IMG/VR virus record: IMGVR_UViG_3300036845_000193
Span: 1 to 42,212 of that record
Strand: one strand, 5' to 3'
DNA: 42,212 nucleotides
Source of the DNA: a virus
Shown here: piece by piece, positions 7,486 to 39,500 of the stretch
Layout: each line of letters begins with the position of its first letter
Position numbering within the stretch: the first letter of the stretch is position 1
The notes under the pieces: generated by a model
Databases searched by the model: none
Told to the model about the DNA's origin: nothing
What the model saw: only the letters and a program-made list of their open reading frames with translations
Position numbers and translations under genes: made by a program

Positions 7486-7718
7486 GACGCCCGACCCGCG
7501 AGAGCTTCCTGATGCGCATGGCCCCCGACCCGGAGACCGCCATGCGCCTGCACGCGCTGGGGACCGCGATCCGGCAGGCGTGCGAGGACACGGCCATCCC
7601 GGTGGCCGACATCGCCCTCATGCTGAACGTGCTGGCGCTCGATTTCGCCAGGGAGGGCGGCGCCGAGGCCCAGGCGGCCTTGCAAGAGGAGGAGCCCGAT
7701 GACGAGCGCCCACACTGA
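7482..7718 (+). CDS. Small hypothetical phage protein (78 aa)
   Basis: ATG 7482 overlaps the previous TGA. The product is helical (ETAMRLHALGTAIRQACED, VADIALMLNVLALDFARE) with an acidic C-terminus (QEEEPDDERPH). No family recognised. Its last 20 nt overlap the next gene. Confidence 0.6.
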   Translation: MRRPTRESFLMRMAPDPETAMRLHALGTAIRQACEDTAIPVADIALMLNVLALDFAREGGAEAQAALQEEEPDDERPH

Positions 7719-8034
7719 CACCCGCGCCGCCGGCCTCGACGAGCTGGCGTTCATGACCTGGCTGAAGGCCAACCACTACACGCACCTGAAGCCGCTCCCG
7801 GGCGGCCGGTGGGGCGGCCTGATGCGGATGATGTTCACCCACGCCATCGTCGCCGGCCGCCTCGGCGACATGGATGGTTACGACGATCGGTGGTGCTACA
7901 AGAGCCTGGAGGACGCCGCCGCCGCGCTGGAGCTGTGGAACGGCGTCGGCGAACCGCGCGGCTGGCATCGACACCCGGACAGCGGCCGGCGGCGGGTCGA
8001 CGGCGATCCGGCCCAGGAGACCATCAGATGGTGA
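7699..8034 (+). CDS. Hypothetical phage protein (111 aa)
   Basis: ATG 7699 lies inside the end of the previous gene, with AAGAGGAGG 5-13 nt upstream as ribosome site. The sequence is rich in aromatic residues and His (YTHLKPLPGGRWGGLMRMMF, RWCYKSLEDAAAALELWNG). This is typical of small phage proteins that read R-W-x-x-L...MFT...I..G. Function unknown. Confidence 0.65.
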   Translation: MTSAHTDTRAAGLDELAFMTWLKANHYTHLKPLPGGRWGGLMRMMFTHAIVAGRLGDMDGYDDRWCYKSLEDAAAALELWNGVGEPRGWHRHPDSGRRRVDGDPAQETIRW

Positions 8035-8411
8035 ACTTCGAGAAGATCAAAGCCTGGTTGTTCAGTGAGCCCGAGACCTGGTTTCGGGTCGCCGACTACT
8101 TCATCTACGCCTGCATGGGGTGCGACCTGGCCATCCAGGTGATGCTCTACGTGGTGTCGCCCCACAACACCTACACGTTAGCCCGGGTGGTGGCCGACGT
8201 GTTCTGGCCGATCGCCGTGACCATGGCCCTCCTCGGCCGGCGCGTCGCCATGAACGGGATGCACACCTGGCGCGACATCGCCAAGATGCGCGAGCAGCAG
8301 GTGCAGCTCCTGGAGCACGTCAACCAGGTGAACCACGAGCGGTTCATGCGCTGGGCGCACAGCCTGGAGACCGGCCTGCCGCCCGAGGATGAGTACACTA
8401 GCGTGCACTGA
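8028..8411 (+). CDS. Two-pass membrane protein with a coiled-coil tail (127 aa)
   Basis: I chose ATG 8028; the frame open from 7809 covers the previous gene. Residues 22-45 (YFIYACMGCDLAIQVMLYVV) and 55-70 (VVADVFWPIAVTMALLG) are hydrophobic enough to be two membrane helices. A charged helical tail follows (RDIAKMREQQVQLLEHVNQV). Size and topology would suit a holin or a membrane scaffold, but no lysin is adjacent, so holin is only a possibility. It ends the fourth operon. Confidence 0.6.
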   Translation: MVNFEKIKAWLFSEPETWFRVADYFIYACMGCDLAIQVMLYVVSPHNTYTLARVVADVFWPIAVTMALLGRRVAMNGMHTWRDIAKMREQQVQLLEHVNQVNHERFMRWAHSLETGLPPEDEYTSVH

Positions 8412-8507
8412 CGAGCTTGCTACGCCCTAGCGACGCACTGTACGGTTTCTCGTCATGTCGGACAGGCGGCACAGTGGGGGTCGCCGCGACATGCGGGAGA
8501 CCTGCCC
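8412..8507 (+). promoter_or_regulatory. Leader with promoter-like element, similar to 10757-10797
   Basis: It carries ACGGTTTCTCGT at 8442-8453, the fourth leader with this element. TTGCTA at 8417-8422 precedes TACGGT at 8441-8446 by 18 nt. The stretch 8415-8455 also shares GCTTGC, CGCCCTAGC and TTTCTC, in the same order and nearly the same spacing, with 10757-10797. GGGAGA at 8495-8500 sets the start at 8508. A 41-codon frame from ATG 8455 lacks a ribosome site and is not called. Confidence 0.5.
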
Positions 8508-9224
8508 ATGGCGGTTCGCAGAAGGGTGTTCGCACCCGCTTTCAAAGCCAAGATCGTCGAGGAGGTGCGCGGGGAGCTGAACAACGACACCGAGCTGACG
8601 GAGTACGCCGCGTGCGTGCGCGTCGGCGATCGGTGGCAAATCCACCAGTCGGTGGTGCGCTCCTGGGTGCAGCTCGCGCGCGGCGAGGAACCCACCAAGA
8701 CGCCGGTCAAGCACCGCAAGGCCCCGCGCGGCAACCAGCACACCCGCAAGGTGGGCACGGGCCATGTCTACGACGACGCCTACAAGGCCGCCGCCGTGGC
8801 CGAGCTGCATGAACGCCTCCCCGGCGAGGGCGGCGAAGTGTGGGCGAAGGTCGCCGCCAAGCACATGATCCACGCCACCACCCTGCGCTCCTGGGTGCGG
8901 GCGGCCGAAGGCGCGCCGAGGGTCGATGAACACACCGGCAAGCGCACCCGCGCCCTGCCGCCGGGCCCCGAACACGTGGGCGCGCCCAGCCTGCCTGCCA
9001 CCACCTCAGGAAGCCATGAGTTGACCCACGAGAGGCACGCCGAGCCGCGCGATCCCGAGGGCACGCTGAAGTGGGCGATCCTCGGCTCGCAGTCCGACGC
9101 CAACCGCTACCTCGCCAGGCGGATTGACGAGCTGGAGGACGAGGTGAAACTGCTGCGGGCGGAAAAGGTGGTGCTGATGCAGGCGATGGGCATGGTCAAC
9201 ACCCACAAGGTCAGCGTGACCTGA
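8508..9224 (+). CDS. Double helix-turn-helix, transposase-OrfA-like DNA-binding protein
   Basis: The 238-residue protein has two related IS3-type HTH units. Unit 1 (about 7-58) starts VFAPAFKAKIVEEVRGE and ends QSVVRSWVQLARG. Unit 2 (about 85-135) starts VYDDAYKAAAVAELHER and ends ATTLRSWVRAAEG. A Pro/His-rich linker follows, then a coiled coil (RRIDELEDEVKLLRAEKVVL) like the leucine zipper of IS3 OrfA. No catalytic OrfB partner or terminal inverted repeats are present, so it looks like a transposase-derived regulator rather than a mobile element. It sits next to the recombinase and the shared leader elements. Confidence 0.7.
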   Translation: MAVRRRVFAPAFKAKIVEEVRGELNNDTELTEYAACVRVGDRWQIHQSVVRSWVQLARGEEPTKTPVKHRKAPRGNQHTRKVGTGHVYDDAYKAAAVAELHERLPGEGGEVWAKVAAKHMIHATTLRSWVRAAEGAPRVDEHTGKRTRALPPGPEHVGAPSLPATTSGSHELTHERHAEPRDPEGTLKWAILGSQSDANRYLARRIDELEDEVKLLRAEKVVLMQAMGMVNTHKVSVT

Positions 9225-9562
9225 TGGAAATTCCCAAGATTGGCCCGCTGTTCTGGAAGCTGGTCGACCGCAAGGCTGTTCCTTGCGCTGACGTGGTCGA
9301 GTGGGGCGCGTTCTGCGAGGTCGACGAAAACCGCCGCGTCGGCTGGACAGACATCGACGGCGTGAGGGTGTCGACAATCTTCCTGGGCGTGGCCGGCGGC
9401 AACCCTTTCGGGCCGCCGATGCTGTTCGAGACGGTGGTGTTCGACGACTACGGCAATCGCGGCTTCGCCCGGTACGAAACATGGGAACAAGCCGAGGCCG
9501 GCCACACCGCCGCTGTAGCCGAAATCCTGGCTCACGCGGGCAAACCGTGCGAGATTTCGTAA
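9224..9562 (+). CDS. Hypothetical phage protein (112 aa)
   Basis: ATG 9224 overlaps the previous TGA as TGATG. The core VSTIFLGVAGGNPFGPPMLF, ETVVFDDYGNRGFARYETW, EQAEAGHTAAVAEI is a pattern I recognise from many phages and prophages, always unannotated. The fold looks beta-rich with a terminal helix. Co-transcription with the HTH gene is likely. Confidence 0.7.
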   Translation: MEIPKIGPLFWKLVDRKAVPCADVVEWGAFCEVDENRRVGWTDIDGVRVSTIFLGVAGGNPFGPPMLFETVVFDDYGNRGFARYETWEQAEAGHTAAVAEILAHAGKPCEIS

Positions 9563-9568
9563 TGACAT

Positions 9569-9594
9569 AGGGAGCGAAGCACCTTAGGCTCCCT
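9569..9594 (+). promoter_or_regulatory. Inverted repeat immediately before the serine recombinase
   Basis: AGGGAGC (9569-9575) pairs with GCTCCCT (9588-9594) across a 12-nt loop, ending 3 nt before the recombinase start at 9597. There is no T-run, so it is a poor terminator. It includes the only purine-rich stretch that could serve as a ribosome site for the recombinase. Control of recombinase translation, or a recombination site, are both possible. Confidence 0.4.
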
Positions 9595-9596
9595 GC

Positions 9597-10283
9597 ATGG
9601 TCAATTTCATCAGTTACATCCGCGTCAGCACCGAGCGTCAGGGGCGCTCGGGACTTGGCCTCGAAGCACAGCGCGACACCGTCGCCCATCACATCAAGAT
9701 CACCGGCGGAACACTCCTGGAGGAGTTCCTGGAAGTCGAAACCGGCAAGGGCTCGAACGCCCTGGCGCGCCGGCCGCAGCTCCGGGCGGCCCTCGACGCC
9801 GCCAAGCGCGCCAAAGCCGTGCTGATCATCGCCAAACTCGACCGCCTGGCCCGCAACGTCGCCTTCATCGCCACGCTGATGGACAGCAAGGTCGAGTTCA
9901 TCGCCGCCGACAACCCGCACGCCACCCGCCTGACCCTGCACATCCTCGCCGCCGTCGCCGAGCACGAGCGGGAGATGATCAGCCAGCGCACCAAAGCCGC
10001 GCTCCAGGCCGCCAAGGCCCGAGGCACCCGCCTGGGCGTCTACAGCGACGTGCTCAGCGTGCAAAACAAGGCCGACGCGGTGCTGCGGCTGACCGAGATC
10101 GGGCCCGTGCTGCTGACCCTGCGCAAGGGCGGCCTGTCGACCCGCAAAATCGCCGCCCAGCTCAACCTGGACGGTGTCGCCTCACCCGGTGGGGGCCTCT
10201 GGCACCGGACCAGCGTTCAACGCGCCCTCGGGCGCCTTCAGGAGACAGCAGATGCCGAGCAACTGGCAACGATGGGTCGGTGA
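9597..10283 (+). CDS. Small serine recombinase (resolvase/invertase family)
   Basis: A 228-residue protein. The N-terminal catalytic domain (1-140) begins FISYIRVSTERQGRSGLGLE, with S11 as nucleophile. It continues with LIIAKLDRLARNVAF (D82, R83, R86) and an AEHEREMISQRTKAAL helix-E region. The C-terminal 60 residues (TLRKGGLSTRKIAAQLN, GLWHRTSVQRALGRL) form a helix-turn-helix. The size fits resolvases and invertases, not large serine integrases, so a role in inversion, resolution or cassette exchange is likelier than classical phage integration. There is no good ribosome site. A short hairpin precedes it, and its last 32 nt overlap the next gene. Confidence 0.88.
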   Translation: MVNFISYIRVSTERQGRSGLGLEAQRDTVAHHIKITGGTLLEEFLEVETGKGSNALARRPQLRAALDAAKRAKAVLIIAKLDRLARNVAFIATLMDSKVEFIAADNPHATRLTLHILAAVAEHEREMISQRTKAALQAAKARGTRLGVYSDVLSVQNKADAVLRLTEIGPVLLTLRKGGLSTRKIAAQLNLDGVASPGGGLWHRTSVQRALGRLQETADAEQLATMGR

Positions 10284-10713
10284 GGTCCAGAAAAAGGGCG
10301 TGTCGATCAACGAGCCGACCCACCGTCGACTGAAAGCGGTCTCCGAGGAGACCAGTATGTCGATGCAGTTCTGGGCCGACGCCGCCGTCCGGTTTTTCTT
10401 CGCCCACACCAGCTCGGCCGCGCTGATCAACGCCGCCAAGGGCGTCACCCTGGAGGAGTACAGCGCCCGGGTGAACGCCGCCGACAAGCTGATCACCCAC
10501 CTGATCGAGCACGGCATGGAGGAGCCGGAAATCGTCGAAAAGCCGCTGCTGGAGCCCACCCGCAAGGGTGAGGAGGAGCTGCGGCGCGAGACGCTGAAGC
10601 TGCCCGGCGGCGGTGGCGCCGGCGGCACCAAGGCGCGGGTCCACGCCACCGAGGCGGCCCCGGCGCTGGCCAAGGCCGCGCGCACACAGGCCCCGGAGAC
10701 CTGGAGGCACTAG
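10252..10713 (+). CDS. Arc-like ribbon-helix-helix protein (153 aa)
   Basis: AGGAGA at 10240-10245 sets ATG 10252, inside the recombinase gene. The N-terminal 45 residues read KKGVSINEPTHRRLKAVSEE, then TSMSMQFWADAAVRFFF: a beta strand plus two helices, as in Arc/CopG/MetJ DNA-binding proteins. The rest is a helical segment (EEYSARVNAADKLITHLIEH) and a Gly/Ala-rich tail. The overlap implies it is made together with the recombinase. It may repress that operon or serve as an accessory DNA-binding factor. Confidence 0.65.
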   Translation: MPSNWQRWVGEVQKKGVSINEPTHRRLKAVSEETSMSMQFWADAAVRFFFAHTSSAALINAAKGVTLEEYSARVNAADKLITHLIEHGMEEPEIVEKPLLEPTRKGEEELRRETLKLPGGGGAGGTKARVHATEAAPALAKAARTQAPETWRH

Positions 10714-10794
10714 AAAACACTGAGGATTTTGGGCCGGGTCGGTAAGACACACATCCGCTTGCGAGCGCCCTAGCCGCGCTGTCTTTTCTCTACC
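10714..10794 (+). promoter_or_regulatory. Intergenic region sharing a leader element with 8415-8455
   Basis: The gap before the packaging module holds GCTTGC (10757-10762), CGCCCTAGC (10766-10774), CTGT and TTTCTC (10785-10790). These occur in the same order as in the leader at 8415-8455. It could be a second copy of one promoter; the following gene would then start leaderless or nearly so. It could also be a recombination-related repeat, because the two copies bracket the recombinase segment. Confidence 0.4.
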
Positions 10795-11454
10795 GTGGGT
10801 AAAAAGGCGGCAAAGCGTGATCTTAGGCGTCTTCGTGGCCGCATGATCGCCGCTGGTCGCATCGCCGCCGCCCGCCCCAAGAAATCAGACGCGCCGCGCT
10901 ACCCGGGGGGTCGGTTGAAGCCGCCGACCCCCAACGCGCGCGTCATCGCCGAGCGCCGGCTGCTGCTGGCCGACGCCGCCGCCAAGGGCGCGGCGCTGCG
11001 CCACGCCGAGAACGCCCTCGACCTGATGCTCGCCCGGGGCTGGCTCACCCAGCCGCTCCACGAGGCCGCGACCAGCTTCCGCCGGCTCTACAAGGCGGCC
11101 CTCCCACCCCTCCCGGACCTGAAGACCACCACCATCGCCGAGGAGCCGAGCCACGATCCGGATGTCCGGGCCGTCAGGGTGTCGGTCACCTCGCCCAACC
11201 CCGATGGCAACCCTGCGGCGATGGACAGTCTGAGGTCCATCTGGCGCGTGCTGGCCCTCCAGCCCGCCGCTCGCAGCGAAGTCATCGAGCTGTGCCTGCT
11301 GCACGGCTCCTGGCCGACCTGGCTGGTGGGGATGGTTGAACGGCGCCGCCTCAGCGCCGACGAGCAAGCGGCTCGCCGCAGCTTCTACTGGGGCCTGCAC
11401 AACATCAACGCCGTGCTCGCGCACCACCCCCAGGCGCGGGCCCTCGCGGCATAG
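10795..11454 (+). CDS. Hypothetical protein upstream of terminase (219 aa)
   Basis: The frame opens at GTG 10795 without a ribosome site; ATG 10843 is an alternative. The first 45 residues are very basic (KKAAKRDLRRLRGRMIAAGR). The body is helical (ARVIAERRLLLADAAAKGAA, DSLRSIWRVLALQPAARSEV). The basic start suggests DNA binding. No family recognised. Its place just before the terminase genes would suit a late regulator or an accessory packaging factor. Confidence 0.6.
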   Translation: MGKKAAKRDLRRLRGRMIAAGRIAAARPKKSDAPRYPGGRLKPPTPNARVIAERRLLLADAAAKGAALRHAENALDLMLARGWLTQPLHEAATSFRRLYKAALPPLPDLKTTTIAEEPSHDPDVRAVRVSVTSPNPDGNPAAMDSLRSIWRVLALQPAARSEVIELCLLHGSWPTWLVGMVERRRLSADEQAARRSFYWGLHNINAVLAHHPQARALAA

Positions 11455-11463
11455 GAGATCGAC

Positions 11464-11637
11464 ATGGCCAAGGGAAACGACAGCGGGCGCGCCAGCGTGG
11501 TGGGCCCTGGCTACGGCAAGAGCACATCGGCCAGCGGCAAGACGTCGAGCCCGCCCTACTACGACAAGACCAGCAAGGGTCAGACCAACACCGCCTCGGT
11601 GGGCGGGGGCCCGAACGGCAAGGGACAGTTGAAGTAG
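11464..11637 (+). CDS. Gly/Ser/Lys-rich small protein (57 aa)
   Basis: ATG 11464 follows GGAGAT by 4 nt. The 57 residues are low complexity (MAKGNDSGRASVVGPGYGKS, TSSPPYYDKTSKGQTNTASV) and end in a basic GKGQLK. It is probably disordered. Similar basic MAKG or MAR proteins lie at 13853-13999 and 14003-14173 within the terminase gap. Such peptides are common near phage head genes; roles in DNA condensation or as virion components are speculative. It ends 1 nt before the small terminase start. Confidence 0.6.
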   Translation: MAKGNDSGRASVVGPGYGKSTSASGKTSSPPYYDKTSKGQTNTASVGGGPNGKGQLK

Positions 11638-11638
11638 G

Positions 11639-12079
11639 GTGTCTGAGTCGACGACGATCGAGGGCGAGGCCACCGTCGTCCGCGAGGGCCCCGTTCTGCG
11701 CCACCCCAGCGGCCAGTTCGCGCCGGGCAACGCCTGGGCCTACACCTCCGCGAACCCGTCCCCGGGTAGGCGCGGCTCGCGCGACAAGATCAGCCGCGAC
11801 TTCATCAGCGCCCTCGCCAAAGACTTCGAGGTCCACGGCGCCGCCGCCATCCGCAAGATGCGGATCAAGAAGCCGGCCGACTACTGCAAAGTGATCGCGT
11901 CGCTCCTGCCGAAGCAGTTCGAGGTCCGCGAGGAGCTGTTCGATGGCGTCTCCGACACCGAGCTTGCTGCAATCATCGCTGCCGCCCGAGGAAGTCTCGT
12001 TGCTGCTGAGGGCGGCCGAGGCCGAGATCAAGCGGCGGACAGAGACCAACCGCCTCCAAGCCTACCGGCCGTACCCTAA
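11639..12079 (+). CDS. terS: Small terminase subunit (DUF5681-type)
   Basis: GTG 11639 start. After GQFAPGNAWAYTSANPSPGR comes RRGSRDKISRDFISALAKDF, then AAAIRKMRIKKPADYCKVIA, SLLPKQFEVREELFDGVSD and TELAAIIAAARGSL. This matches the DUF5681/small-terminase-like proteins found directly before P22-type large terminases. It should bind packaging-start DNA and recruit the motor. The conserved core ends near residue 120. The last 25 residues (from AAEGGRG) are read out of frame over the start of the large terminase and look like an extension after loss of the original stop. Confidence 0.75.
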   Translation: MSESTTIEGEATVVREGPVLRHPSGQFAPGNAWAYTSANPSPGRRGSRDKISRDFISALAKDFEVHGAAAIRKMRIKKPADYCKVIASLLPKQFEVREELFDGVSDTELAAIIAAARGSLVAAEGGRGRDQAADRDQPPPSLPAVP

Positions 12080-12677
12080 GCAGGCGGTTTTCCACGCCGA
12101 GGGGTCGGTGCACCGCGAGCGCCTGCTGATGGCCGGCAACCAGCTCGGCAAGACCTTCAGCGGTGCGGCCGAGGCGGCGATCCACGCCACCGGCCAGTAT
12201 CCCGACTGGTGGATCGGCCGGCGCTGGGATCGCCCGACTCGGGGCTGGGCCGGATCGCAGACCGGCGAGGTGACCCGCGACGGCGTGCAGCGGCTGCTGG
12301 TGGGCGAGCCCAAAGACGAGCGATCCTGGGGCACGGGGATGATCCCCAAAACGACTCTGATCGACTGGTCGCGGCGCCAGCACGTGCCCGACGCCGTCGA
12401 CAGCGTCATGGTCCGGCACGTCAGCGGCGGGGTCAGCACCCTGGGCTTCAAGAGCTACGACCAGGGCCGCCAGAAGTGGCAGGGCGAAACCCTGGACTAC
12501 GTCTGGTGTGACGAGGAGCCGCCCATGGACATCTACATGGAGGCCCTGACCCGGACCAACGCCACCGCCGGGATGACCTTCATCACCTTCACCCCGCTGC
12601 TCGGCATGTCCGACGTGGTGCGCATGTTCCTCGGCGAGGAAGGCGAGCAGCGGATCGCTTCGGAGCAGCCGACATGA
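11943..12677 (+). CDS. terL: Large terminase, ATPase half (split gene, N-terminal fragment)
   Basis: This is the complete ATPase domain of a P22-like large terminase in 244 residues. It contains YRPYPKQAVFHAEGSVHRER, Walker A AGNQLGKT (64-71), a typical TGEVTRDGVQRLL segment, GFKSYDQGRQKWQGETLDYV, Walker B VWCDEEP (D190, E191) and the coupling motif FITFTPLLG (213-221). In intact relatives GMSDVVRxFL leads through a short linker into MTIxDAEHYTPEQ. Here a stop follows GEEGEQRIASEQPT, and the nuclease half is a separate gene at 14836. The start region overlaps terS by 137 nt. The stop overlaps the next ATG (ATGA at 12674-12677). Confidence 0.92.
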   Translation: MASPTPSLLQSSLPPEEVSLLLRAAEAEIKRRTETNRLQAYRPYPKQAVFHAEGSVHRERLLMAGNQLGKTFSGAAEAAIHATGQYPDWWIGRRWDRPTRGWAGSQTGEVTRDGVQRLLVGEPKDERSWGTGMIPKTTLIDWSRRQHVPDAVDSVMVRHVSGGVSTLGFKSYDQGRQKWQGETLDYVWCDEEPPMDIYMEALTRTNATAGMTFITFTPLLGMSDVVRMFLGEEGEQRIASEQPT

Positions 12678-14835: not shown

Positions 14836-15570
14836 ATGTCCCGCTCGATCATCCAGATGACGATCGAGGACGCCGAGCACTACACGCCCGAGCAGCGCCA
14901 GGCGGTCATCGACAGCTACCCGGTGCACGAGCGCGAGGCGCGCACCCTGGGCATCCCGGTCATGGGCTCCGGTCGGGTGTTCCCGATCGGCGAGGAGGGG
15001 ATGGTCATCGAGCCCATCCGCATCCCGCCGCACTGGGCGCAGATCAACGGCCTGGACTTCGGCTACGACCACCCCTTCGCGGCGGTCAACATGGCCTGGG
15101 ATCGCGAAGCCGACGTGCTCTACGTCTGCAAGGAGTATCGCGAGCGCGAGACCACGCCGCTGATCCACGCCGGGGCGATCAAGCCCTGGGGCGACTGGAT
15201 ACCGTGCGCCTGGCCCCACGATGGACTCAGCCACGACAAGGGCTCTGGCTACGCGCTGCGCGACCAGTACGCCGCCCAGCAGCTCAACATGCTCCCCGAG
15301 CGGGCGACGTTCCCTGACGGCGGCTTCGGGGTCGAGGCCGGCGTCATGGAGATGCTGGACCTGATGCAGACCGACCGCTGGAAGGTGTTCAAGACCTGCG
15401 GCGGCTGGCTCAGCGAGTTTCGCATCTACCACCGCAAGGACGGCCTGATCCAAAAGGTCCGCGACGATCTGATCAGCGCCTCGCGCTACGCGATGATGAT
15501 GCGCCGCGAGGCCAAGACTGCGCCCCGCGTGCGCAAGAACCGCGACTACTTCAAGAGCTGGATGAATTGA
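14836..15570 (+). CDS. terL: Large terminase, nuclease half (split gene, C-terminal fragment)
   Basis: This is the RNase-H-like nuclease domain of a P22-like large terminase, 244 residues. It opens SRSIIQMTIEDAEHYTPEQR, the sequence that in intact relatives continues from the ATPase linker. Likely metal ligands are D74 in GLDFGYDHP, D129 in WPHDGLSHDKG and D211 in RDDLISASRYAMMM. GSGRVFPIGEEG and LPERATFPDG are also family hallmarks. The ATG has no strong ribosome site and lies 4 nt after the previous stop, so translation probably depends on coupling. The two fragments total 488 residues, about the length of an intact enzyme. Confidence 0.9.
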   Translation: MSRSIIQMTIEDAEHYTPEQRQAVIDSYPVHEREARTLGIPVMGSGRVFPIGEEGMVIEPIRIPPHWAQINGLDFGYDHPFAAVNMAWDREADVLYVCKEYRERETTPLIHAGAIKPWGDWIPCAWPHDGLSHDKGSGYALRDQYAAQQLNMLPERATFPDGGFGVEAGVMEMLDLMQTDRWKVFKTCGGWLSEFRIYHRKDGLIQKVRDDLISASRYAMMMRREAKTAPRVRKNRDYFKSWMN

Positions 15571-20083: not shown

Positions 20084-20115
20084 GGGCGGCGCCTGCGGGC
20101 GTCGCCCTTTTTCTT
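20084..20115 (+). terminator. Rho-independent terminator after the capsid gene
   Basis: GGGCGGCGCC (20084-20093) pairs with GGCGTCGCCC (20098-20107) through a TGCG loop, a 10-bp stem with one G-T wobble, followed by TTTTTCTT. It lies 15 nt after the coat stop and would limit read-through into the tail genes. Confidence 0.88.
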
Positions 20116-20150
20116 GCTGCCTGCCGCCCTCGCACCCGTAGGAACGCCCC

Positions 20151-20831
20151 ATGTCCCTCGACGGCACCTATGCCGGCCTCCAGACGTCGGTCGGGGACTT
20201 CCTGAACCGCGCCGACCTGTACGCCTCGATCCCCGACTTCATCACCCTCGCCGCCGCCCAGATCAACCGCCGGGTGCGCTGCGCCGACATGATCACGGCC
20301 ACCACCCTGACCATCTCCACCCTGTCGGCCGCGCTGCCCGCCGACTTCAACGGCATGGTGGCGTTCGAGCTGCCCTCCGGGAGCGGCAACCCGCTGCGCT
20401 ACGTGAAGCCCGAGGAGGTGCGCAGCCTGCGCCAGGGCATCTACGCGACGGCCGGCACACCGGCGGTGTGGACGATCAGTGGGCTGAACATCGAGACCGC
20501 GCCCGTGCCGGCCACCTCGTTCGTGTGCCCGATGCTCTACTACTCGCGCCTGCCGGTGCTGTCGGCGAGCCAGACCACCAACTGGCTGCTCACCAAGCAC
20601 CCCGACACCTACCTCTACGGCGCGCTGCTCCAGTCGGCCCCCTACCTGAAGGACGACGCCCGCATCGCCGCCTGGGGCAAGCTCTACGAGGAGGCGCTGG
20701 CCGACGTCGTCGTCAACGACGGGCGCGTCAGCTACGGCCACGGGATGCTCGCGCCGGTGCGTGGCGCGGCGGCTCCGATGGGCAACGAGCCGCAGGGCGC
20801 TGCGCCCCCGCCGCCTGGGCCGCCGCAGTGA
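20151..20831 (+). CDS. Head-tail adaptor, P22 gp4-like, copy 1
   Basis: A 226-residue protein. TSVGDFLNRADLYASIPDFI, TLAAAQINRRVRCADM at the start and TYLYGALLQSAPYLKDDARI later are hallmarks of the gp4-like adaptor family that binds the portal and closes the head. The region between is beta-rich. It ends in a Pro-rich tail (PQGAAPPPPGPPQ). A weak TAGGAA precedes the ATG. It is paralogous to the next gene. Confidence 0.8.
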   Translation: MSLDGTYAGLQTSVGDFLNRADLYASIPDFITLAAAQINRRVRCADMITATTLTISTLSAALPADFNGMVAFELPSGSGNPLRYVKPEEVRSLRQGIYATAGTPAVWTISGLNIETAPVPATSFVCPMLYYSRLPVLSASQTTNWLLTKHPDTYLYGALLQSAPYLKDDARIAAWGKLYEEALADVVVNDGRVSYGHGMLAPVRGAAAPMGNEPQGAAPPPPGPPQ

Positions 20832-30512: not shown

Positions 30513-33500
30513 ATGGCTGACGGCTCGCGCCTCGCTGGTCCTTCCTACGCTCTGAGCGGCGGTGGGGATGGCGCCGCCACGCCCGCGTCGAACCTGACCG
30601 GACTGAGCGTGCAGCTCGGCTCCACGGCCGACCCCGATCCGGCCAGCCAGGGCGAGGCGCTGATGACCCTCGGGCAGTTGGGCACGACCCCCGAGCTGGC
30701 GCCCGGCGATCCCAACCGGCTCCTGATGTCGTCGGGCCTGCCGTTGCCCAACTACGCGCCCCCGCCGCTCGGCATCTGGGACGCGACGCGGGGGGCTCTC
30801 GCCGAGACCATCAGGGGCATCGGCACCCACGACCCCGAGGCGCTCGGCCGCGCGGTGGACTTCCTCACGGGCCAGCCGATCGGCCAGACGTCGCAGGCGC
30901 TCCGGGCCGGGACCGACATCGCCGCCGGCCAGACCAGCGAAATCCCCGCAGCCTTCGCCAACCTCATCCGTCACGAGAACGACCCGGGCATGACGCGCGG
31001 CCTGCCGATCGGCGAGGGCGCGGGCTGGGCGGCGGCCGAGAGCGACCTGGGCTTCCCCGCCCGCACCCAGCCCGCGAAGGGGCCCGACTACGCGCCGCCG
31101 GCCTTTGCGGCGCCCCTGGCCGCGCAAGGCGAGGCGAACGTCCCCGTCAACCCGGGCTTCGCCTCGCAGGTCGCGTTGCAGGTCCCGCAGCTCGCCGAGT
31201 TCGCCGGCCTCGCGGCTGTGCCTGAAGTCGGCGCGCCTCTCGCCGCCGCCGCGATGGGCGGCCAGGGCATCGTCGAGCAGCAGGAGAAGGCCGAGAAGGC
31301 GGGGCTGGCTGGCACGCCCGAAGCCTACCGCGCCGAGGCGCTGGCCGGCGGCCTCCAGGGCGGCCTGGCGCTGGCCCCGCTCGGCGCGGCGACGGGCGCG
31401 CTGCTGCCGGCCGGTCTGAAGCAGACCGGGCTCAACGTCCTGGAGCGGCTGGGGTTCGAGCAAATCCCGGGCTGGGTGGCGCGCGGCGCTGGGGAGCTGC
31501 CGGGCGGGGCGCTGTTCGGCGCGGGCTCTACGGTCGCCTCCAACCTCGCCACCCAGCAGCTCAACCCCAAGCAGGACTTGTTCGAGGGCGTCGTCCCCGG
31601 CTCGGCGCAGATGGCCGCGATCTCGCTGCTCACGGGGATCGCTCACGGCCACGGCGAGGCGCCGGTCTACACCCCCAAGGGCATCGAAGGGCCGGCGGCC
31701 GACGCCACCAACAGCTACCTCCAATCCCTGAGCGACGCGCACCTGGCCGCCGCCAACGCCGCCGACGATCCGATGCACATGATGGCGCATCTCAACGCCG
31801 CCCAGGCGCTGGCGGGCAAGACGATCACGCCCGAGCAAGCCACCAACATGGCCGCCACGGAGCGCCAAAAGGGCTGGCTGTTCCGAGGACAGCCGCCCGT
31901 CGCGCTCACCCCGCACGACGCGGCGGTCGACCGCGCCCAGGCGCGCATCGAGCAGATCGACCCCTCGGCCAAGCCGCCGCCAGAGTCAGAGTTCGCGCCG
32001 CCGACAACAGTCACCACGCCTGCGGTCGCCGATCTCAACCAACGCCTGGACGTTCTGGGGCGGGAGTACGCCGCGATGAGCGCCGCCGATCGCGCGTCGC
32101 CGCTCGGCCGGGCGATCGGCGTCGCCAACCAAGTCGGTGGCGTGCTCGGGCCCACGACGATGACGGGGGGCGTGGAGCACACGCCCATCTCGATCCAAAC
32201 CGTGCAGGCGATCCGCGCCGCCCGCGACGCCGGGCGCCAGGACGTGGTGCAGGCGATCCTGGATCGCGGTGACCGGCAGGCCGCGACCGCCGAGAGCGAC
32301 CCCGAGGGGCAGGCGTTTCTGGCGCAGCAGCTCCACACCGCCGCCAACGCGCCGCCGATCACTGACCCGGCCGGCGACGAGGCGTACCGCCAGGCCGTCG
32401 ACCTGGTGCAAGGCGGCGGCACGCCCCACCGCTACTTCGTCGGGCCGGCGATCGGCATCAGCCACGACGCGGCCGAACAGCACCTGCGGGAGATGACGCT
32501 CAACGGCATCGTGTCCAACGTCGACGAGCGTGGGCTGCGCACCCTCCTGCCTCCCGAGACTGGCGGCGCGCCGCCTCCCGTGACGACGCCGCCCGCCGCC
32601 ACGACTCAGCCGACCACCACCGAGCCCCCGCCTCCCGAGACGGTCACGCCAGGCGCAGAACCGACGACGACGCCGACCGTGCCGGCCGACATCAACCCGC
32701 TGGCGAAGCCGCCGGTCGACCCGCGCGACCAGGTCACCGTGATCTCCCACTACAACCCGCAAACCAGGGGCACCTACTACGGCGTCAGCATCAACGGGCG
32801 GACAGTGGTCGAGCCCACCCAGGGCGCCCAGAAAGCGTGGGAGCTGGCCCACGCCCTCGTGGGCCCGTTCCCGGCCGACCGCGTCATCGACACGGCCACT
32901 GTCGGGCCAGTACGTGCGCAAGGCGTGCCGGACGATCCGCAGCACGCGCACTTCGGACCCGCCGACCTGCCTCGCGAGGGGGCGCTGTCCCTGCCGGCGA
33001 TCCACCAGGCGTACTTCGCGGCCTACGGGTCCAACAAAACGGCGGCTGGACACGGCCTGGCGTTCCAGGCCGGCGCGCTCGGGGCTCCCCTCGACCCGGC
33101 GCTGAGCAAGAAGTTCCTACCGGCCTACATGGCGGGCTCGCGCTACCGCGACATGGCCATCAACGCCGGCGCGCCGACCGGGCCTGCCGCGCCCGTCGTC
33201 GCGCCCCGGCCGGCGCCCGTGGCGGCGGCGCCCGAGCCCACCGCGCCGCCCCCGCCGACGTTCCAGCACGGCGACACCGTCCACTGGACCGACAGCAAGG
33301 GCGTCAATCGCCAGGGCACGTTCGAGGGCACTTACGACGGCCATCCCATCGTCAGGCAACCGAGCGGCTGGGCGACGCTCCAGGCGGGTGTCGATCTGCA
33401 ACCGGGCCCGCACCCCGACCCGAACAGCGTCATGGTCACCCAGCCCGGCCAGAAGATGTCGGACGGGACGCAGCTCGCGGGCATGGATCATCCGCTCAAC

Positions 33501-36500
33501 TGGCCCGCCGACGTGCCGCCGATGGTCTACCACGGCTACGGGCGCCCCGATCAGGCCAGCGCCTACAACAGCGACTTCCACGGCATGACGACGCCGATCC
33601 TGGGACCCGGCCGCTACTTCGCCTTCAACAAGGCCGACGCCGGGGAGTTCGGCCCCAACGTCGAGAACGAGCTGGCCCCGCTCAAGAACCCGGTCGTGAT
33701 CCGCTCGGACGCGGATTGGAGAAACCTCACCGAGCAGGCCGGCTGGGACTTCGCCGGTATGCCCCAGGGGGAGGACATCGAAAACCTCCACTACATGCTC
33801 CTGGGCCGAGGCTACGATGGCGCGATCGTCCACTGGGACGACAACACCGAGACCGACAAGGACAGCCGGGGCAACTGGATCAAGCTGCTGCGCAACACCT
33901 TCGGCACGCCCCAGGCGGTCGACTTCACGCGCACCGCTGGCCCCGCTGAAATCGCCGCCAAGGCCGCCGCGCCGTTGCCCGAGCCCGAGCCCAAGCCCGC
34001 GCCCACTGACACCACCCCGGCCGGCGGCGGGGCTCCAGCGCCCGCCCAGGTGGCCCCCACGGTGGCTGGGACGCCGTGGGACTTCGTCGACACCTTCCCG
34101 ACGCCGCAGCCGGGCAGCGAGACGGTCTACGCCAACCCCAACGACGTCGCCGAGCAGCGCGCCTACCACGACGCGGTGGCCAAGCGGCTGCTCGGGCTAC
34201 AGCTCCAGGATCGCCAGCTCACCGCCGCGCTTGAGGGCGGTTACGACGTCGAGAGCGGGCGCCCGCTGGACGAGCTGAAGAACGGGGCCAAGGTCGAAGC
34301 CTCGATGAAGGAGGACCAGCGCAACGCGGCCGGCGCGTACCACGGCTCCCTGGAAGCCTACCGGAGCCTGTTCGGCGCGGACGCGGCCAACGCCTTCCGC
34401 GATCACATCGAAAACATGTTCGCCGGGCACACGCCGTTCCCCAAGGGGTACGAACGGGCGCAGGACGCCATCCGCGAGCACCACATCGCCACGGCGCTGG
34501 GCGAGCCCGCCGACAGGGGCAGCACGGCCCGCGCCTATGCCGGGTCGGAACGCTACGGCTTCCCCGGCGCGGACCCGACGACCAGGATCGCCCAGGCGAT
34601 GGAGCTGGCCCAGTTCCGGAGCAGGCTGGAGGCCGAGAACCCGAAGGGGCTCAAAGCGATCGACGCCCTCCCCGGCGGACCCCGCCCGGGCACCACGGGC
34701 GACATCGTCAAGCGCCTGGAAGCCGTCCTCGGCGCCACGAAAGACGGGCGCTCCCGTGTGGCGGAATACCTCGGCGCGCAGAATGACGAGATGAGGGGTT
34801 ATCGCCCGCACGGCGTCCCCCTCAGCCAGCAGCGCGGCCTCATGACGCCCTACACCCGCGACGCGGTGGACGCGATCCTCAACCCCGTGCTGGCCAGGCC
34901 CAACGAGCCGCCTCCCGAGCGCGCTGCGCGGCCGGGCGCGACGCAGGGCCTCACGGCGGCCGACTCGCTGGTGATGGACCCCAAGAAGAACGCGATGGGG
35001 AACGCCAACATCCAGTTGGCGACCGACGCCAACGGCCAGTGGTGGCACCGCACGACGGCCATGCACGCGGAGGGGACCGGCCTGTGGCCCGACCACCACG
35101 AGGGCCCGTTCGCCACCCGCGAAGAGGCGATCCGCGACGGCCTGGCGCGCATCCGCATCAGGATGGCCGAGCCCGAGCGGTACGGTCATCCCAGCGCCGT
35201 CGAAAAGAGCCAGATGGCCCAGCGCGCCAAGTTCCGGGCGTGGGCCGACACGGTCGAGGCCGGCCTGGCGAAGACGGCGCCGGCCGCAGGCCAGGGCGCG
35301 GCGACGCCGGCCGAGCCCACGGTCGCCCCGCCAAAGCCGGGCGAACGCTACGTGCCGATCGTGCCTCGCGGGACCGAGCAAGCCATCACGATGCCGATCG
35401 TCAAGACCGGCATGGCGCGCGCTCAAATCCAGGTCGGCCAGGGCGCGGACGGCAAGTGGTACGCCGGCCACGGCTACGAGCTGGGCGCCGAAACCGGAGC
35501 GCACATCCCGATCGGCCTGGGCCCCTACGACACGCGCGCCAAGGCGATCTTCGCCGCCGGGCTCGACCTCCACGCCAGCATGGTCCGCGACCTGGCCCAC
35601 TACGGCGACCGCGCCACGCCAGGCATGAGGGCGGCGGCCGAGCGCATCGGCAAGTGGCTGGCGACGGTCGATCCCGACAAAATCCCGCAGACCAGCACGT
35701 CGGCCCACGTCGTCGGCGCCGAGCCCGAGCGCCAGCCGCTCGACTACCGCCCGGGCGCCGCCGGCACGATCAGCGTACCCGGGCGGCCCGACCTCGCCGT
35801 GCAGTACGGCCTGGCCGAGGCCGGCGACCTCACCGCCTCGAACAACGCCGACTTCTCGGCCAACCCCGAGTACCCCGCCGAGCTGCAACCCCGTCAGCGC
35901 GACCGGGGCGCCATGCGTGGCCAGATCGCCGCCATGCTCAACCCCGAGCAGTTCCGTCCGGGGATGCTGGGAGCCTCCACCGAAATCGGCACGGGCGCCC
36001 CGATGGTCGGCCCCGATGGGGTGGTCGAAAGCGGCAACGGCCGGGTCATGGCGCTGCGCCAGATGTACGCCGAGGGCGGCCCGGCCGCGCAGGCTTACCG
36101 CGACTACCTGGAGAGCCAGGGCCACGACACCAGCGGCATGAAGCAGCCGGTCCTGGTGCGCGTGCGCCAGACGCCGCTCACTCGCGCCGAGCTGATCCCC
36201 TACCTCCAGGACGCCAACACCAGCGCCATCGCTAGGATGGGCGCCGGCGAGCAGGCCAAGGTCGACGCCTCCAAGCTCACTGGCGAGGTGCTGGACAGCT
36301 ACCGGGGCGGCAGCCTGACCAACGTCGAGAACGTCCCGTTCGTGCGCGCCGTGCTGGGCCAGATCGCCTCGCCCGCCGAGCTGAACCAACTGGTCGACGC
36401 CAAGGGCGCGCTGTCAGCCGAGGGTGTGCGCCGGCTGCAAGCGGCGTTCACCGCCAAAGCCTACGGCGACAACTCGCTGGTGCAGGCGATGTTCGAAAAC

Positions 36501-39500
36501 CCCAACCCGGACATGGGCACGCTGGGCAAGGCCGCCGTGGCCGTGGCGCCCCAGTGGGCGATGATGCGGGAGGCCGCCGCCAGGGGTGTGATCGACCCCG
36601 GGCTCGACCCCACCGACGCGCTCAACACCGCGTTCAGCCTGGTGCGCCAGCAGCGCGAGGGCGCCGTCAATCTCGCCGACAAGTACAGCAGCATCGACGC
36701 CTTCTCGGACGAGGACCCGCGCGTCGAGCGGTTCCTGCGGCTGTTCTACCAGGGCGACGGCTTCAGGCGCGTGCGGGCCGGCGACAACATCGCTCGCGAC
36801 CTCCAGGACTACACCGCCATGGCGCGGGCGCAGGCCACCAACGACATGTTCATGGCCCCCGCCCACGAGATGTCGACGGCCTTCCTGAACGGCCTGATCG
36901 AGCGCGCCAACACCGCCAAGGCCAAGGGCCAGCCCGAGCTGACGCTGGATGAACAGGCGCCGGGCGCGCTCTACACCCTGCCGGGGCGCGACGAGCCCGA
37001 AGGCGAGACGCCCGACCAGCTCGACCTCACCACCTGGCACGGCTCCCGCCACCTGTTCGGCCAGCCCGACGACCGCTTCATCGGCGAGGGCGAGGGCAAC
37101 CAGACCTACGGCTACGGCCACTACAGCGCCGGCAATCTCGCCACCGCCGAGACCTACCGCAACGCGGGCGGCGATCGTCGGCGCCTGGACACCTTCGGCA
37201 CGGAAGGCGAGCCCTGGCACGTGCAGCAGTTGGTCGAGAAGGCCCGCAACCACCTCGACATCACCACGGAGAAGGTCTCCGACATCACGCCCGAGGCTGT
37301 CGCGGGTGCTGTCGGCCAGCGGCTCGACAAAATCTGGCCTGAGCACGTGCTCCGGGACCCTGGCGCGCAGGCGCAGATCGCCCAGCACGTGGCCGACGTC
37401 GCCGACAGGGTGCGGCGGGGTGAGATGGGTGTTCGCGCCACCGGCACTGACGGCAACATCTACCGCTGGGAAGTCCCCGCGCACGACGAGTTCATCGACC
37501 ACGACCTGGCGCTCTCCGAGCAGTCGCCGAAGGTGCGCGAGGCGATGCAGCGGATCAGCGACCAGATCGCCATCGCCCGGCGCTGGGGCTACTCGCTCAA
37601 CGAGGTGCGCTCGCCGAACCGGGTGGACCGGATGGCCGAGCTGCTGGGGACGATGAAGCTGGGTTCGCGCGAGCGCCCGGACATCATGGAGGCGACCTCC
37701 CGCGAGGGACACGCAACCGGCTCTGACTTCTACCAGGAGCTGGCGCACTACGCCTCCGAGCACATCACGGAAGGGCGCACCAAGGCCACCGGCCCGCGCG
37801 AGGCCACCCGCGTGCTGCGGGAGGAGGGTGTCGCCGGCCTGAGCTACCTCGACCATCGGTCGCGCGACGTGCTCAACATCGACAAGTTCCGCCGGCAGGT
37901 GGTCGCGGGCGAGAAGCGGCTGCGCGAGTACGGTCCCAACCCGCCCCAGAACATCATCGACCAGCTCAGCCGGGCGCGCTTCGCCCTGGAGTACGCGGAG
38001 GCGATCAAGAACCCCACCTGGAACTACGTCACCTTCGACCCGAGCCGCATCCAGGCCGAGCGGGTGGAGGAGGGCGAGCACCCCGAGCCGGCGACTCTGG
38101 AGGACCGCGAGCACCCCGAGGCCGACACCCTGGAGCGCCCCGAACCCGACCCCCTGGTGGGCCGTGGCCGGCGCCGCCCGGCGGGCACGATCGCCGAGGC
38201 CCAGGCGCGCGGCGTGGTCGGCTTCACCTCCTCCAAGATCAAGCGCGTCGACCAGATGGCGCACGAGCTGGGCAAGCTGCTCGGCGTGCCGATCCGGGTC
38301 GGCCGGATGGGTGGCGGGACGCTAGGCTACTTCGTCCCCAGCACGGGCGAGACGAAGGTCAAGTGGTTCGACGAGTACAACACCGTCGCGCACGAGCTGG
38401 GCCACGCGCTGGAGCTGCGCGACCGGGGCCTCTACCCCGAGCTGAACAAGGCCATCAAGGCGCACGCGGGCGAGCTGCGCCCCATCGACTACATCCCCAA
38501 CCGGGCGAACAAGACGGTCGGCCTGCACGAGGGGTTCGCCGAGTTTTTCCGCTACTACATGACCAACCAGAACCACGTGCTGCGGGAGACGCCGAACTTC
38601 TACAAGGCGTTCGAGGCGGCGCTGGCCAAGGACAACCCGAAGCTGCTCGCCGGGCTCCGCGAAATCCAAAAGGACTACCACGACTTCCTGGCCTCGGGCC
38701 CGACCGAGCACCGCAACGTGCTCCACCCCAGCGAGTACATGGTCAAGAAGGGCCCGGCCGCCTGGGCGGCCATGGCCAAGGACGCCGCGAGCCGTCCGAT
38801 GGGCTGGATCGGCGAGCTGGCCGACGAGGCTTACCGTCGCTACATCGACCACCTCAACCCGCTGAAGATCGCCCGCAACCGGCTCATGGCGATCCGGGCC
38901 CACAACCTCGGCTACCGCGAAGACCTGCCGGCGTGGCGCGACCCCTACAAGCAGGCCCAGATGGGGGTCGACGCCTACAGTGCGGCCCACGCCGACCTGG
39001 TGTACGGCGTCCACAAGTACCACACCAACGAGCTGGCCAACGTCCCGCAGGGCGCGCCGGCGCCGGGCACGGCGGCCATCCCCGACCGGCCCGCGTCGTC
39101 GCTGTACGCGGCCCTCGAACATGCCGTGGGCAGGCCGCCGGGCGTGCTGACGCCGGGCGCCAGGTGGGACATCAACCAGCTCGCCGAGTTCGGCCACTAC
39201 CTGGTCGCGCGCCGGTCGGTGCAGCTCTGGGATCGCTACAACCGGAAGCAGCTCCGACGCCCCCCGGATGGCCTCTCGGCGACCAGCAACAAGAACGCGG
39301 TGATCTGGTACGAGCAGCACAACCCCACGTGGGCGAAGGCCGCCGAGATGGTCTACGAGTACAACCGGGCGCTGTGGGACAAGCGCCTCGACAGCGGCCA
39401 GATCACCGCACAAATCCACCGCCTCGGGATCGAGATGAACCCCGACCACGTGCCGTTCGCGCGCACCCGGAAGGGGCGCCCCGGCGGCTCGGGCGGCGAA

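Follow-up and report, generated by a model that had tools for sequence, protein, structure and literature searches.

Two similar sequences that bracket a small serine recombinase gene in a virus record from IMG/VR are best read as two related promoters on the main transcribed strand of the phage, each placed in a noncoding gap ahead of an operon, and from the sequence we put the probability of this reading at roughly 0.6. A pair of repeats around a recombinase gene is easily misread as a mobile cassette. Here the rarity of the motif, its spacing and the available relatives point to promoters, and the two copies look like ordinary promoters of neighbouring gene sets. For a little-known group of alphaproteobacterial podoviruses, they provide two specific positions at which transcription may start.

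The window, by which we mean the whole stretch of DNA that was analysed, is 42,212 bases long and encodes a P22-type portal (Pfam PF16510, 2.5e-191) together with a scaffold and a major head protein. Close relatives of the portal occur in several Phenylobacterium and other alphaproteobacterial genome contigs, and an alphaproteobacterial host for this phage is therefore likely. No DNA match was found among the phage records searched with the window. Positions 30513-42158 encode a protein of 3,881 residues that contains ddrB-ParB and LPD38 domains, and CTAG is strongly depleted across the whole window (11 found against about 113 expected from base composition).

Similarity of the two copies

As the preliminary description of this DNA had stated, the copies share GCTTGC (8415 and 10757), CGCCCTAGC (8423 and 10766), CTGT and TTTCTC in the same order, with gap offsets of 1-2 nt. 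Aligned over 8415-8451 and 10757-10790, they are identical in 30 of 38 columns, with four small gaps. Among the 66 pairs that can be formed from the 12 plus-strand noncoding gaps, as defined in this analysis (1,310 nt in total), this pair ranked first, with a local score of 29 compared to 28 for the runner-up. That score was equalled in 12 of 60,000 trials with paired dinucleotide shuffles of both gaps, a probability of about 0.013 once corrected for the 66 pairs. When 8412-8480 was searched against both strands of the window, the right copy scored highest (29; next 26); when the query was the whole left gap, 2 of 2,090 other comparison windows scored 30, both near 38.9 kb. CGCCCTAGC occurs without a mismatch only at these two places in the window. 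By these comparisons we consider the similarity real, in that it exceeds what chance would give, yet modest.

RNA folding of the gaps was ordinary (z -1.76, +1.08 and -1.39). A possible third copy at 9563-9596, ahead of the recombinase gene, was rejected because its weak similarity gave p values from 0.03 to 0.7 depending on target and scoring. The same stretch holds an inverted repeat, GGGAGC...GCTCCC, immediately ahead of the recombinase start (z -1.39), which could be an operator or a recombinase site. A terminator-like match at 10764-10780, inside the right copy, was not relied on (one match compared to a shuffle mean of 2.2).

Features between and beside the two copies (window coordinates)
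Feature	Coordinates	Strand	Remarks
Left copy	8415..8451	+	Candidate promoter of the HTH-hypothetical-recombinase-10252 operon; TTGC 8417 as putative -35, TACGGT 8441-8446 as putative weak -10, spacer 18
Presumed leader of HTH gene	8455..8507	+	GGAG ahead of ATG 8508; short out-of-frame ORF from ATG 8455
HTH protein, 238 aa, probable DNA-binding	8508..9224	+	HTH_Tnp_1, Pfam PF01527 1.5e-6
Hypothetical protein, 112 aa	9224..9562	+	No counterpart between the HTH and recombinase genes of L044
Small serine recombinase, resolvase/invertase type, 228 aa	9597..10283	+	PF00239 9.7e-26
Small protein, 10252 family, 153 aa	10252..10713	+	Fold unconfirmed
Right copy	10757..10790	+	Candidate leaderless promoter of gene 10795; TTGCGA 10759 as putative -35, TCTTTT 10782-10787 as putative weak -10, spacer 17
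Gene 10795 product, conserved phage protein, 219 aa	10795..11454	+	GTG start, no Shine-Dalgarno match; first gene ahead of the terminase genes

Candidate promoters within the copies

The tetramer TTGC is found 30 times on the plus strand of the 42 kb and 167 times on the other strand. Only 2 of the 30 plus-strand occurrences fall in the 12 noncoding gaps, and these are exactly the two copies. One of two options in the preliminary description was that both copies are copies of one promoter. The rarity and position of TTGC agree with this, whereas the -10 elements are weak, and we accordingly speak of candidate promoters: TACGGT and TCTTTT each match TATAAT at only 3 of 6 positions by eye, and a strict promoter scan of 7600-11600 returned no site at its threshold.

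The right copy could be compared in two relatives, L043 (portal 94% identical) and the far diverged L044 (portal 61%). TTGCG precedes the start of gene 10795 by 36 bases in the window, by 36 in L043 and by 35 in L044; for L044, a hit at any of three positions would arise by chance with a probability of about 0.0015. Gene 10795 begins without a Shine-Dalgarno match in all three sequences; a match of at least 4 bases precedes 20 of the 51 listed starts of the window. This nearly constant spacing, combined with a start codon that has no Shine-Dalgarno match, suits a leaderless sigma-70-type promoter. The right block outside the shared core is kept at 31 of 34 positions between the window and L043, compared to 79-85% conservation at the fourfold sites of four genes in the vicinity. 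At the left copy, TTGC stands at -38 from ATG 8455, and in L044 a TTGC lies 62 nt ahead of the HTH gene and is followed by GGAG. The two L044 gaps align neither with one another nor with the window copies, and what is carried over is TTGC and its spacing only.

For RpoD of Caulobacter, promoters are reported to have TTG as their -35 element, with the start point in most cases 34-37 nt downstream of its first base (PMC4287350). Applied to the right copy, this spacing would place the transcript start at or beside GTG 10795, although the rule comes from Caulobacter, which may not be the host. The likeness to Caulobacter sigma-70 promoters includes the TTG and a distance to the presumed start of gene 10795 that fits the 34-37 nt range, and leaderless messages are described there too (PMC4287350). 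The window copies differ in their weak -10 sequences, and the comparison is between start points presumed from sequence here and those mapped in Caulobacter. CTTGC also recalls the -12 element of Caulobacter sigma-54 (RpoN) promoters as given in that same account (PMC4287350). A sigma-54 reading was rejected, as the GG-N10-GC pattern is absent and AC replaces GG in both copies.

We propose only in outline how the two sites might work. The left promoter (TTGC 8417) probably drives the operon of the HTH, hypothetical, recombinase and 10252 genes, with a transcript that would start near 8452-8455 and carry a leader of about 55 bases in which the GGAG ribosome site precedes ATG 8508. The right promoter (TTGC 10759) probably drives gene 10795 together with the terminase genes that follow, and its transcript would be a leaderless message beginning at or beside the GTG. 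A host polymerase of the sigma-70 type presumably uses both promoters, with the -10 elements at the putative positions listed in the table. A promoter alone does not account for CGCCCTAGC, the stretch in which the copies agree most strongly. Placed in the spacer of both sites, it may be bound by a regulator or be left over from a local duplication, or it may be shared by chance.

Farther right, a 10-pair terminator-like hairpin with a T run follows the major head gene (20084-20151). A TTGC at 20114, after this strong hairpin and 37 nt before ATG 20151, has CGCCCTCGC nearby and is a possible third promoter; it too would be noncoding if gene 20114 started at ATG 20151 instead.

Genes and relatives around the copies

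The preliminary description had placed four proteins between the copies. The claimed recombinase is indeed of the resolvase type by its Pfam match, and it also matches the DNA invertase family phrog_125 (1.2e-32) and invertase structures in the PDB (6.9e-7); it carries what we take to be the catalytic motifs of such enzymes. The gene described as double-HTH has one clear HTH_Tnp_1 match, whereas a second stretch was seen only with relaxed settings. The Arc-like label of the 10252 protein was not borne out, as it had no Pfam, PHROG or NCBIfam match and its model was poor; the predicted structures of the 10252 and HTH proteins (mean pLDDT 48.9 and 46.2) were too poor for use. The protein on the left flank, 7699-8034, returned no relatives when used as query. 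To the right, separate genes encode the ATPase (11943-12677) and the nuclease (14836-15570) of the terminase large subunit, 2.16 kb apart with small genes between. In 18 relatives hand-picked from those fetched, this subunit occupies two separate ORFs in 15 and a single ORF in one (L164); the other two are cut short by a contig end or not resolved.

Genes of the segment are present on three contigs. L043 starts inside the recombinase gene and keeps everything rightward. L044, which is the same contig as L123 and L218, has the order HTH protein, recombinase, 10252 family, 10795 family and terminase genes, with protein identities to the window of 54% for the recombinase, 46% for the 10252 family and 51% for the 10795 family. 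L044 lacks the gene at 9224-9562, and its HTH gene overlaps its recombinase gene. Because the HTH proteins of the window and L044 have no significant BLASTP similarity (E 0.67), the left part of this gene order rests on domain and place, both proteins matching HTH_Tnp_1.

Most of the portal relatives fetched are without the segment's genes by tblastn. Three contigs, L099, L224 and L225, hold relatives of gene 10795 with no recombinase group detected nearby, and two distant cyanophage relatives of this gene were found among the phage records. Across the order, 398 genomes searched with gene 10795 gave 4 matches, with surroundings taken for G339 and G357, and for G395 and G158 the comparison was a tblastn of short loci only. 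Recombinase neighbourhoods in 24 of 41 relatives contained no relative of the other segment genes, in a comparison made without a positive control.

Other explanations of the repeat pair

The other option in the preliminary description was that the 2.3-kb segment is an exchangeable cassette whose ends carry recombination sites. The copies would then be crossover sites of the recombinase, with the segment excisable or exchangeable between them, which we regard as very unlikely. It is true that the copies point the same way on either side of a recombinase gene that appears intact, that the segment's genes are absent from most of the portal relatives fetched, and that none were detected near gene 10795 in L099, L224 and L225. 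However, L044 keeps its gene order across the right point at 43-54% protein identity, and L043 keeps the order up to the contig end inside the recombinase gene. Order retained at about 50% identity points to genes that have long been resident there rather than to a recent exchange at this point. Serine-recombinase crossover sites are partly palindromic and about 26-30 bp long, whereas the best dyad symmetry with 12-base arms is 7 of 12 pairs for the left copy and 6 for the right copy, a level reached by 3-10% of all window positions, and the copies differ from one another by four gaps in 38 columns. The catalytic domain of gene 9597-10283 resembles that of resolvase/invertase-type recombinases (PF00239; PHROG 125; PDB 4m6f, 3uj3 and 2gm4), but the repeats that flank it look unlike the crossover sites of those enzymes, with no inverted pair or res-like array shown. 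The core, identical in the two window copies, is the least conserved part of the right block in L043 (4 of 9 positions kept compared to 31 of 34 elsewhere, Fisher p 0.006; 35 of 43 overall), and the two gaps of L044 have no detectable repeat pair (p 0.58). A search of the viral collection for phages that lack the segment and retain one copy gave no empty-site form, in a collection from which near records of the same virus may be absent. The right-block pattern matched there only L043 itself, and the core pattern matched 8 contigs, all overlapping an ORF in other, unrelated sequence. Upstream of gene 10795 in L099, L224 and L225 no copy of the block was seen by eye, these relatives being too distant to define a junction. 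A cassette thus appears weakened and is not supported by these comparisons, in which the left copy of L043 falls off its contig. Also very unlikely, in our estimate, is the further proposal that the recombinase excises or exchanges its own regulatory operon through the direct copies, so that loss of the segment would fuse the left promoter directly to gene 10795 and the terminase genes and turn on late expression; if true, this would be an unusual switch for late genes.

The shared core could be an operator at which the HTH or the 10252 protein represses the late genes as well as the operon that encodes it; the promoters would then be of host type, with only the operator shared. This is doubtful, although both copies flank genes of probable DNA-binding proteins and CGCCCTAGC, the most identical part at 9 of 9 positions, sits between the presumed -35 and -10, a common place for an operator. 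Against it, the right copy of L043 retains so little of the core (its left copy lying off the contig), the dyad symmetry given above is ordinary for an operator as well, and the HTH proteins of the window and L044 are not detectably homologous. Coincidence, by which a 9-mer and the short words around it are common to two unrelated gaps that each hold a weak promoter, seems to us rather unlikely. It gains from a corrected probability of only about 0.01 with another gap pair just one point below, from the other region that scored 30 against the left gap, and from the lack of such a pair in L044, but it has to accommodate an exact 9-mer found nowhere else in the window and copies that are the sole places of TTGC in the noncoding gaps as defined. 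The two related promoters remain our preferred reading of the pair.

Related recombinase genes also occur near terminase genes on other phage contigs: in L017 (2,500-8,700) and L033 (1-8,000), about 4 kb separates a split terminase from a related recombinase in the opposite orientation.
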